This document shows, one piece after another, positions 17,509 to 25,494 of a DNA stretch of 64,000 nucleotides. The notes beneath the pieces were generated by a model. It saw only the letters and a list, made by a program, of their open reading frames with translations, did not search any database and had not been told where the DNA came from. Each line of letters opens with the position of its first letter. Positions within the stretch are counted from its first letter, which is position 1. A program made the position numbers and the translations under genes. This DNA comes from Xestospongia bergquistia (taxonomy: Eukaryota; Porifera; Demospongiae; Haplosclerida; Petrosiidae): NCBI GenBank assembly GCA_963965975.1, contig OZ014415.1, forward strand, positions 1,369,001 through 1,433,000, read 5' to 3'.

Positions 17509-20500
17509 ATGGCCGCTTCTAATACTGACATCTCTACTAAAGAATATCAAGTGTTACAAAAGTATTACAGTAAATTGATACGTGCAATTGCTGATCCAGT
17601 AAGAATAGCAGCAGATTTGTTTTCAGCTAAACTTATCTCAAATGAAACTCGAATAAAAGCTAACAATGAGAATAGCAATCTTGATACCAGAAATTCTTAT
17701 CTGTTAGATGAATTAACTAGAGCAGTTGCTGTGGATCGTACTAACCTTACAAAGATTATTTCAGTTTTAGAATGTCATCCTCCATTTCTTAGTACTATAG
17801 CTGAAGAAATGAAGACAGAATGTGGTAAGTAACAAATACTTGCTATTTACTGTCCATAGGATGCCCTATTAAATAGCATTAGTATATATATATATATATA
17901 TAAACATATATATATAAACATACTATATATATATATATATATATATATATATATATATATATATATATAAACATATATATATATATATATGTATATATAT
18001 ATATATATATATATATATATATATATATATATATATATATATATATATATATATATATATATATATATATATATATATATATATATATATATATATATAT
18101 ATATATACATATATATATATATATATATATATACATATATATATATATATATATATATATATATATATATATATATATATATATATATATATATATATAT
18201 ATATATATATTATATATATATATATGTATGTATGTATACCTATTGCTGGTCAAGATTATATAGCTGATGTAATTGTTGCATCCATTTCTACATGAAGACA
18301 ATGCACTATATCACTGTTACATATGATAGATACAATTGATATGTATGATAGCAAACAAAGCTATGACAAGTGTACATTTTCCTATATATATATTATATAC
18401 ATAACAGTGTATAAATTTATGATTATTACCTTTTTTATTTTGTGTCATATCAATAATATATTATATATATCAGTAAATACTGGGTAGAGATTACCTGGTT
18501 AATAAAGACAATTATTTTATCATTTAAAAATTATAGCTGGGGTCATTATGATGTCATTCTCATTAGTTTTGATTTCAGGTCTTATTAGAGCTCAACCAAA
18601 TTCAATTCGAGCACAATTTCAAGCTTTGTTACTGGATGATGTAGAGATGACTGGTAAAGGGTTAGGTCGTGGAGCTTATGGTATGGTATTTGAGGTTAGA
18701 GTGAGTGGACTGGTTTGTGCTGGAAAAACTCTACATGAAGATATTGTACAGGTACATGTACTAGCTAATAATGAAATGATCACTACATCTTGTTATCTCT
18801 TTATAGAATGAAACATTAGACAAATTTGCTGAAGAGTGTCTCTGTCACTGTCAACAACGTCACCCAAATATTGTCCAGTTAATAGGTGTCCACTATTCAC
18901 AACATTTTCGTCCACTACCTTTGTTAGTGATGGAATATCTTCCTCTGTCATTAACACAGTGTTTAGAAACACATCAAGATCTCCCACTTCAAATCAAGTA
19001 CTCCATTCTTCTTGATGTTGCAAAGGGTCTCAATTATCTTCATTGTAAGAGACCTCCCATTGTCCATCGTGATCTCACAGCCAATAACATATTGCTGACC
19101 TCTAACTTTATAGCCAAGATATCTGACCTAGGTGTATCTAGAATGGCAGACACCTTTAAACGACAACAACTTACTAAAGCACCTGGTAATGATGATGTGA
19201 TGCCTCCTGAAGCTTTTGAGGACAATCCAATTTATGACCACAAGCTAGATGTCTTCTCCTATGGTTGTCTCATCCTCCATGTCTTTACACATCGATGGCC
19301 TAAACCTACAGCTCAATACATGCCTAGTATCAGTCCTTCTAGAATTGGATCATTTGATCTTGTCACAGAATGGAATAGGAGATCAAAATATACCACAGGA
19401 ATGTCTAGTGATAATCCTTTCTTTTCATTTGCCAAGTCTTGTCTAGACAATGATCCTAAGAAGCGACGTACTATGAGTGATGCTATCACATGTGCTGAAC
19501 ATGCTTTCTCTAGTCTACCAATGAAGAACGTACTAGAGATGATGAAAGAAAATAATTTACTAAATAAAAAGGTAAATCAGTTAAAGAGGCAGGCAGAACA
19601 AGAAAGGGAACAAGCACAAAATGATGCTCGTCGATTGGAACAAGAAAAGAAGCAAGCACAAGATAATATTCATCAATTGGAACAAGAAAAGAAGCAAGCA
19701 CAAGATAATATTCGTCAATTGGAACAAGAAAAGAAGCAAGAACAGAAGGATGCTTACCGATTAGAGCAAGAAAAGGAACAATTGCTTGAGTGTATCCATG
19801 CATTCGTGGATAGAGGGAAGCAGTTAGAAGAAGGTATGTATGTTTGATACAACTTATGTGTGCTATATTTAAAGGTCCAATTAATCCTTTATAGCTTATA
19901 TCTGCACTTCGATACATTCTCATATCAGTGATGTTGATATGTTTTTTTTGAAATGTATATACAACTTACTGAGATAACTGTAATTTCATAGTTTCAGACG
20001 ACCATACAGTTTAGGGATGACTCAAGCTATCTTTCTTTATTTAGTTGAACCACAGTCTCTCAATCGTCAAAAAGTGGTTGACAAATATTCTAGTCAAGGA
20101 CTACAATTTAAAGACAAAGTGAGTACATATGAATATTGACATTTGTAGCATCTGATGTGTGCACTAAATTAAAATTAAAATTATCAGAACACTAGACAAG
20201 AACAACTTTGCTATATACTTTATAGATTTTTTCTTGGTTCCTTAAAGTGATACTATACATTGTATTTGGTGTATTTGGTAATCTATTAAGACATTACACT
20301 ATGTCATAGCAATCTTTGGGTTCTTAATATTATATTGCTAGTAGACATGATGTTTGATTCTCATGAAGTAATTTTATGTAAATAAATAACCTCTCTCTCA
20401 GAGAGGTGAAATTTTGTCAAAATCATTGCTTCAACTTTTGAAAAATATTAGCACACAAAGAACTAATACTTTTTATTGATTAAATTCATTGTATTGTCAT

Positions 20501-23500: not shown

Positions 23501-25494
23501 AATATAAAGAAGTAACAAAAGAAGTCAATTGTTTTTTTGAAGATTCCAAATCCTCATTGGCTCCCACAATGGCAAAATGGAGAGTTGAATATGAGACAAA
23601 ACTGAGAAATGTGAGAGATGATCACAAAGATGCAGCAAAGAAATTTTGCCAAGATGCAATTCGAGGCAAGCATGCTAAGAGTCAAGTGCAGGCACTTAAG
23701 AATAACGAACGTAGTCATTTTACAGAATTAGTAAAGGAACTTGTTTCACAAATGGACATGGGCAAGGATAGAGAACTTACTCAAAAAGATCATAATCAAC
23801 TTCAGAAAATGTTTGACAGTAAATGGAATGAATGGATGAAAGAGATCAACATGAAATATCCACCTCCTAAAAAAGAAAACATTAGTCTTGAAATTTTGAA
23901 TTGTTTAAGAACAAACTGCAATCTAGGTGCTCATGATCATCTAATAATATCTAAAGTCCAGGAATGCCCATTAGAGCAAAGGGGATGGGAACCACTACAA
24001 TTGACTGTTGACCCACAACAGCACTTAAATCTTCATGTTAAATCCAATAAATTTGTAAAAGTCTTTAAAGATACTAGAGATTTCTTAGGGTACACATTAT
24101 CAAGTATTGACAAAAAAATTACTTTAGCTAAAGAAAATACAGCAACTTGGTTGTCAGAAGCTGAATCTTCTTTAGATGAACAAAACAGTTGTTATAATGA
24201 TTCGTCAGTTATTTTGGTAGTTCAAGAACTAACTAAAAAGATTGACACTTATGAAGCTAGCCCAGAAGTCACCTTCAAATTCACTAGTAATTATCGAATT
24301 GATATAATTTTAGAAGTAGCTGGCTATGCATTACGTGTGTTTACTAAAATTCAACAAGACATGATAAATGAACATCCAATTACTTATATGAAGTCATTAA
24401 GACCAACATACTATGCAAAGTTCAAAACCTTATGTGATAAGACAGCTCATGAAAAAGCAGCTGCAATGTGCCTTACTGACCTTGTTGTCAGACATTTTGA
24501 TGTAATACTACAATCTAAGTTAGAAAGAACCATTGTTATAGATTTAAAACAAAGCAATCCTGTCTTCTATAATAAGGCAGCACTAAAAGGCTACATATTG
24601 TTAAGATTATTAGAAAAACAGAAATTCGAATTGTATGTAATTTATCTTAAAAACATCAAACAGAGCTATCTTGACTGGGCTAGGCTATTTGTAGAGGAAC
24701 ATTGTAGAATGAGAAGAGGGAAATGGATAATTACTGAATTAGCTGAAAAAGAGCTAAACCAACTTGTGGCAACAATCACTAATGCAGCTGAGGATGCTTT
24801 GAGGTCTTCATCAAATATCAAACAATGGTTGAAACAATTTCATTCAAATGTCTCAAGTGCTTTACCACTTAATTATCAAGAACTCGATGACATGATTGAT
24901 ATACAAGAAGACAGTGATTTAAGATTTCTAACTGGGGAATTTTTGAAAGGAATACAACGATGTAAAGAAAAGTATTTGACAAGTTTTCAAACCCCACGAA
25001 CATGCAGGGTATTAGACATGTCAACATGGACTAAACATCCAGCTGAAACTATACGAGATACCATAGCTGGTTGTTGTGAGCAATGTCCATTTTGTAAAGA
25101 GCAGTGTGAAGAAACTAACAGCAACCATTCTGGTTATCATCATTGTAGTCTTCATCAACCACAAGGATTAGGAGGTTATAGACAAGATTCTGACAAAATG
25201 GTAACAGAAATTTGCACAGAACTTGTAGGAACAGATCAACGATTCAGATGTTCAGATACAAATAATGAATATGTCTATTACAAAGATTATCATCAAATCT
25301 ATCCAAGTTGGTATATACCACATGAACAAAATCAGGTTGCTCCATACTGGAAATGGTTTGTTATTAAATACAAGAAGGAAATTGCTGAGTTGTTTAATTA
25401 TAAAGTAGAACTTCCTTCAGCTACAGCTGCAGACTGGGAAAGTGTAACAGTAGAAGATGCAAGAAATGATATTAAAAGAAGATACAATTTATAA
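17509..25494 (+). CDS. Gene C: CARD-like, kinase, coiled coil and very large GTPase in one protein
   Basis: Five exons, 17509-17824, 18579-18751, 18807-19833, 20045-20118 and 20527-25494, join in phase (1, 0, 1, 0) at GT-AG sites and give about 2185 residues. The ATG has a good context (AGAATGGCC). Residues about 1-105 form a helical death-fold (CARD-like) domain. Residues about 125-400 are a protein kinase with Gly loop GRGAYGMV, Lys in [17 protein letters not shown] in place of DFG, and PPEAFED in place of APE; all catalytic residues are present. Residues about 404-505 are a Glu/Gln/Lys-rich coiled coil with repeated [11 protein letters not shown]. One SAM-like module follows (about 531-600). 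Then comes the VLIG GTPase with GIQSTGKST (about 1211), DTEGL, and a C-terminal Cys/His cluster [14 protein letters not shown] (about 2046). The fusion rests on splice phase, not on transcript data; two separate genes would be the alternative. An innate immune or cell-death signalling role is inferred. Confidence 0.75.
17880..18233. repeat. Large (TA)n microsatellite in intron 1 of gene C
   Basis: About 350 bp of almost pure TA with rare C or A interruptions. It separates the CARD-like exon from the kinase exons. Being self-complementary, it can fold as cruciform or hairpin and is prone to length change and assembly error. Confidence 0.95.

Follow-up and report, generated by a model that had tools for sequence, protein, structure and literature searches.

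A candidate gene joining a CARD-type domain, a kinase and a VLIG GTPase in the sponge Xestospongia bergquistia

Introduction

Can a giant GTPase of the VLIG type be built into the same protein as a kinase and a death-fold domain? To our knowledge, no giant GTPase of vertebrates shares a polypeptide with a kinase or a CARD, and little is known of how they signal. We analysed a stretch of 64,000 nucleotides from the sponge Xestospongia bergquistia (contig OZ014415.1, positions 1,369,001 to 1,433,000; the window), in which an initial annotation, made from the letters alone, had linked a CARD-like domain, an intact kinase, a coiled coil and a VLIG GTPase across five exons (17509 to 25494, forward strand). 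This locus, the target of our analysis (VLIG2), lies between two other VLIG genes, VLIG1 and VLIG3. We conclude that the target is probably one five-exon gene for a protein of 2185 residues, with a CARD-type domain, a tyrosine kinase-like (TKL)-type kinase, a coiled coil, a short linker, a possible SAM-like domain and a VLIG GTPase, in that order.

Results

Five exons join in one open frame

Joined, the five exons form a coding sequence of 6558 nucleotides, 2185 codons and a stop, with no internal stop. All four introns are GT-AG, and the exons are entered in phases 0/1/0/1/0. The exact phasing of the initial annotation (1/0/1/0) thus holds, and the overall order of CARD-type domain, intact kinase, coil and VLIG GTPase is supported by the joined exons together with the domain matches described below. 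For splice-site scoring we built matrices from the loci of a kinase array on the same contig (59 donors, 44 acceptors); sites lacking the expected GT or AG were dropped uncounted, and the set may include sites of VLIG1 but none of the target. The four target donors scored 8.7, 11.7, 9.6 and 6.7 bits (training median 10.9), and the acceptors 5.8, 16.9, 7.6 and 1.1 bits. Intron 1 holds a long (TA)n microsatellite (17882-18230).

Exon 2 (18579..18751) encodes the N-lobe of the kinase, as judged from its motifs (the glycine loop GRGAYG and the lysine of AGK), and exon 3 (18807..19833) encodes the remaining kinase and an EK-rich tail. Exon 3 matched Pfam Pkinase (E = 1.7e-31), and the catalytic motifs are complete (GRGAYG at residue 135, AGK at 153, HRDL at 250, DLG at 270 and PPE at 296), so that, at the level of sequence, the kinase is catalytically complete, as had been proposed. 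The nearest PDB chains were TNNI3K (the best, E = 5.7e-27) and CTR1, both of which we take to be TKL kinases, hence the group name used here. The tail of exon 3 gave weak scores to coil-type Pfam models (ERM_helical, 0.01; CALCOCO1, 0.02) and reads as coiled-coil-like.

Exon 5 (20527..25494, with its stop at 25492-25494) encodes the VLIG part. It matched both Pfam families expected of a VLIG GTPase far above their cut-offs: URGCP (E = 5.4e-76, 256.2 bits, cut-off 27) and URGCP_GTPase (E = 1.2e-124, 416.5 bits, cut-off 55). The G1 P-loop (GIQSTGKS, residue 1212) and the G3 motif (DTEG, residue 1265) are intact. The further description "interferon-type" is a family label. Vertebrate VLIG GTPases likewise have this part in a single giant coding exon.

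The start of exon 5 (20527..20796) was predicted to be helical by AlphaFold2, with a predicted local distance difference test score (pLDDT) of 82.5 for the best model and 56-69 for the other four. Its best PDB profile match was the SAM domain of ANKS6 (E = 0.018, weak), and it aligned weakly with SAM domains of the same genome (hhalign, 6.9%, E = 0.0053); Pfam gave no match and Foldseek no significant one. These similarities are at most suggestive of a SAM-like domain. Exon 5 has its first ATG within this first domain, so an upstream exon would be needed, and exon 5 is unlikely to stand alone.

Exon 1 encodes a relative of CARDs

Exon 1 (17509..17824, donor GTAAGT) encodes residues 1-105. It matched none of the Pfam families, and CARD was absent from the 19 families listed when 26 of its relatives were scanned. 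By profile-profile comparison (hhalign), a 12-sequence profile of close exon-1 relatives scored 96% against 13 Pfam-positive CARDs of the same genome (E = 4.8e-9, 74 columns), and a 26-sequence profile scored 97%. In negative controls, the 26-sequence profile scored 0.2% against the SAM-like unit and the 12-sequence profile 1.8% against 16 SAM domains, while the CARD set scored 0.4% and 1.4% against the same two. The alignments held 26 of at least 123 CARD-type matches, 13 of at least 32 Pfam-CARD matches (20 fetched, 7 weaker ones left out) and 16 of at least 77 SAM matches in the genome; our genome searches score the best candidates only, and all counts taken from them are lower bounds. This homology argues that exon 1 is a CARD relative and bears out the label "CARD-like", albeit without a fold. 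A domain search on the joined protein recovered the kinase and the URGCP-type GTPase by Pfam but not the CARD by a direct match.

The CARD-type exon belongs to a family with at least 123 genome matches at E 0.1 or better, dispersed over many contigs. Its partners on two of these (C8 and C2) gave no clear Pfam match, apart from an fn3 hit that fell just under the threshold.

A neighbouring gene has the same order with a different linker

VLIG matches (PF25683) in the 146-Mb genome number at least three, and all three lie within the window. One of them, VLIG1, provides a second instance in the block of the order CARD, kinase, coil and VLIG, reached through a different linker, a DUSP domain; the initial annotation did not contain it. 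The CARD, kinase and coil exons of VLIG1 precede the window (contig positions 1366346-1368487). Within it follow two DUSP exons (233..354 and 407..533, forward strand), the second with a weak acceptor and with its donor at the position conserved among DUSP exons, and then, after an intron of 56 nucleotides in phase 2, the VLIG exon (590..5459, forward strand), found by Pfam and by the genome search. The six-exon model encodes 2318 residues without an internal stop, with donor phases 1/0/2/1/2.

The identity of the DUSP domain in VLIG1 is unambiguous (Pfam E = 1.9e-21, 76.7 bits, cut-off 29.3), and its donor lies at the same codon position and in the same phase in all 25 copies found in the examined loci, VLIG1 included. 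A gap of 56 nucleotides between the DUSP and VLIG exons leaves little room for the 3′ end of one gene and the promoter of another. Because other in-phase AGs lie near the acceptor of the VLIG exon, its phase agreement is weak evidence taken alone. Downstream of VLIG1, no exon like those that follow DUSP in the array was found before 8634, where the next block begins. Overall, the sequence supports a fused gene better through this neighbour than through exon 4 of the target.

Both genes lie within an array of exon-3-like kinases on the window's contig (positions 1160229-1484285), where at least 24 matches, counting the target, score below E 1e-100 and three more are fragments. Of 20 loci of 10 kb each (L012-L031), 15 yielded DUSP exons. 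Many array kinases are followed by DUSP and then by exons that appear ubiquitin-like by eye (no Pfam match in the two tried); these would couple a kinase with what resembles the regulatory portion of a USP protein. Such kinases also occur in a cluster at 10.84-10.86 Mb of contig C2, where no DUSP exon was found in the three loci examined. Elsewhere in the block, a third CARD-type exon (L013:428-2057) stands before a kinase gene whose catalytic part is seemingly deleted and which continues into coil and DUSP.

The target and VLIG1 belong to a colinear block repeat. Five anchors occur in the same order in the window (8231-8809, 9631-10593, 17302-17828, 18568-19563 and 20758-25517) and upstream of and into it on the contig (1360695-1361288, 1361942-1362906, 1366157-1366665, 1366906-1367886 and 1369750-1374480), but the repeat is not clean: its kinase copies cross-match, and there are signs of exchange between copies. 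The CARD exon of the target is nearest to that of VLIG1 (88% identity; the next is 71% among the matches listed). Comparison of both upstream regions by blastn revealed a shared block (17302..17370 on the forward strand, 139-207 bases before the CARD start) with 91% identity over 70 aligned positions, a candidate promoter region. The ratio of nonsynonymous to synonymous substitution rates (dN/dS) between target and VLIG1 was 0.29 for the CARD, 0.50 for the kinase and 0.44 for the VLIG part; values below 1 indicate purifying selection on all three. The two genes differ most in the linker, which consists of coil, exon 4 and SAM-like domain in the target and of coil and DUSP in VLIG1.

Exon 4 is a plausible bridge

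The initial annotation had made exon 4 (20045..20118, 74 nucleotides) the key link of the gene. It is the best-scoring bridge from exon 3 to exon 5. Among 500 first-order Markov random sequences, tested with the donor at 19833 only, 107 offered some bridge in the correct phase, and in 5 of the 500 the bridge equalled exon 4. The hexamer score of exon 4, 0.38 (coding mean 0.45, non-coding mean -0.43), lies at the 39th percentile among 66 exon-5 windows. Of 2177 overlapping open windows from stretches without a known gene, which we treated as non-coding, 6.6% scored as high. VLIG1 and VLIG3, which are homologous to exon 5, were part of the training set. By these statistics exon 4 looks coding, and its role as a link is plausible, although we found no relative of it. 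A genome search with exon 4 and the exon-5 start domain returned at least 16 matches, none of them outside exon 4 and the three VLIG genes.

One gene, a minor isoform or two genes

From the domains, their order, the phases, the block repeat and the selection seen in these sequences, we infer a single mRNA and a function for its product. Several results weigh against one fused gene. No homologue of exon 4 was found, either in VLIG3 or by genome search. A candidate origin for it, as a relic of the conserved pre-DUSP segment of the kinase array, scored -2.8, which 1611 of 2000 shuffles reached, and was rejected. The exon-5 acceptor, at 1.1 bits, falls just under the training minimum of 1.4; at the equivalent position VLIG3 also has a weak acceptor (1.7), and the DNA of VLIG2 matches that of VLIG3 across the site. 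Two sites of VLIG1 are weak as well, its first donor (3.2) and its acceptor at 407 (-1.4). For exon 1, no CARD structure was matched and PDB gave no credible match; for residues 1-105, AlphaFold2 run on the single sequence gave no usable model of a six-helix death fold (pLDDT 50), and a fold search with that model, which found no match, carries no weight.

The remaining points concern ancestry. The target kinase is closer in DNA to a copy at contig positions 1361941-1362895 (87.8%) than to the kinase of VLIG1 (84.7%), which ranks 18th among the target-kinase matches listed, the target itself being first. The VLIG part is nearer to VLIG3 (89% protein identity over 878 residues, then 74% over 682) than to VLIG1 (72%). 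The closest relatives of the kinase part and of the VLIG part thus differ, and a single fused gene that was simply duplicated does not account for everything. One kinase-VLIG fusion may have been duplicated with its block and then have undergone patchy exchange with array members and VLIG3, or kinase and VLIG parts may have been joined more than once. The differing relatives slightly lower our confidence in one fused gene and raise that in two.

A tentative possibility, compatible with the fused gene, is that the fusion is made but is no more than a minor isoform, accompanied by a short CARD-kinase form. Intron 4 contains an AATAAA (20381) at which such a form could end, and the weak exon-5 acceptor would favour it. 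AATAAA-type hexamers are, on the other hand, presumably common in AT-rich introns, and the VLIG exon is under apparent purifying selection and has no ATG ahead of its first domain.

That the target comprises two adjacent genes we consider unlikely. The first, CARD-kinase-coil, would end at the stop at 19845-19847 or be polyadenylated in intron 4, and the second, VLIG, would begin at an ATG at 20017 with exon 4 extended upstream; that ATG is in frame, and no stop intervenes before exon 4. The array's surplus of kinases (at least 24 strong matches, against at least three VLIG matches) fits this arrangement, as do the different nearest relatives of the two parts and the finding that no kinase relative lies upstream of VLIG3 within the window. 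However, AATAAA and ATTAAA are absent between 19834 and 20045, the conserved upstream block sits before the CARD exon, and in VLIG1 the short gap between DUSP and VLIG exons speaks against separate genes. The nine-codon extension before exon 4 scores -0.03 against 0.38 for exon 4, a value between the coding and non-coding means from a segment too short to judge.

It is very improbable that rearrangement in a decaying or misassembled tandem array produced the joined frame by chance, for although the VLIG3 frame is broken and the block contains kinase and DUSP fragments, the target and VLIG1 models each run for more than 2100 codons without an internal stop, with dN/dS of 0.29-0.50.

Other features of the window

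VLIG3 (39865..47246, reverse strand; Pfam and genome search) carries 13 near-identical tandem copies of a 67-residue SAM-like unit, with a period of 201 base pairs, ahead of its VLIG part. Its reading frame shifts near 41950, between segments 41862-47246 and 39865-41958. Upstream of it lies an open reading frame (49700-50302, forward strand) that is Gag-like by eye but has no credible Pfam match, perhaps a retroelement that displaced the 5′ exons of VLIG3. Between VLIG2 and VLIG3 are exons of a HEATR1/UTP10-like gene (29941-37131, reverse strand; U3snoRNP10, 1.3e-13). A further open reading frame (13006-13626, forward strand) has a sub-threshold match to ZU5 (E = 0.0032).

Discussion

If the target is expressed as one polypeptide, how might it work? 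In a speculative model, the GTPase would self-assemble, perhaps coating intracellular microbes in the manner of human GVIN1, aided by the coil and the SAM-like domain. Assembly would crowd the kinases, allowing trans-phosphorylation, and the CARDs, which could nucleate a CARD filament, so that detection would be coupled directly to signalling. An all-in-one cell-autonomous immune device of this kind, in which a VLIG GTPase assembling on an intracellular target would directly bring together the kinase and CARD that it carries, and one polypeptide would combine coat formation with inflammasome-like signalling, is possible, although we regard it as doubtful. If true, such a device in a sponge would predate interferon.

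By the "Rosetta stone" argument, a natural fusion suggests that GTPase, kinase and CARD act in one pathway, and it offers a testable hypothesis as to which signalling lies downstream of VLIG assembly. The linkers of the two sister genes differ (exon 4 and a SAM-like domain, or DUSP) and a third gene has 13 SAM-like units, which suggests that the means of GTPase oligomerisation has been remodelled repeatedly.

In an open-access full-text library we found no paper on a kinase joined to VLIG or on a sponge, Amphimedon, invertebrate or Porifera VLIG, and nothing on a kinase-VLIG fusion among the matches listed in wider literature searches. A paper on sponge immune genes mentions GTPases, and the accessible portion of its text uses neither "interferon" nor "gbp" (PMC8242945).

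Proteins with parts of this combination are familiar. RIPK2 and IRAK/Pelle unite a kinase with a death-fold domain, as the target would, but are not known to contain a GTPase, and the CARD of RIPK2 is C-terminal. DAPK1 has a kinase and a GTPase in one polypeptide; in both DAPK1 and LRRK2, unlike the target, the GTPase is Roc rather than VLIG, and no CARD is known. Zebrafish Gbp4 differs from the target in being a GBP rather than a VLIG, with a C-terminal CARD and no known kinase. Proteins of the USP4/15 type carry DUSP, as do VLIG1 and the kinase array; in these two, where no search was made for a peptidase domain, DUSP is joined to a kinase. GVIN1 presumably belongs to the URGCP-type Pfam families seen in exon 5.

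LRRK2 combines kinase and GTPase in one polypeptide (PMC3280333), and zebrafish Gbp4 combines an interferon-inducible GTPase and a CARD in one protein (PMC4932187). GVIN1 and the vertebrate VLIGs share the VLIG GTPase with the target. Human GVIN1 coats intracellular bacteria, is predicted to dimerise via its LG domains, and consists of an N-terminal domain, two LG domains, a helical linker and a C-terminal domain (PMC11974893). The main text of that paper mentions neither "kinase" nor "card". In our judgement, the GTPase family is a known one and the domain architecture of the target is new.

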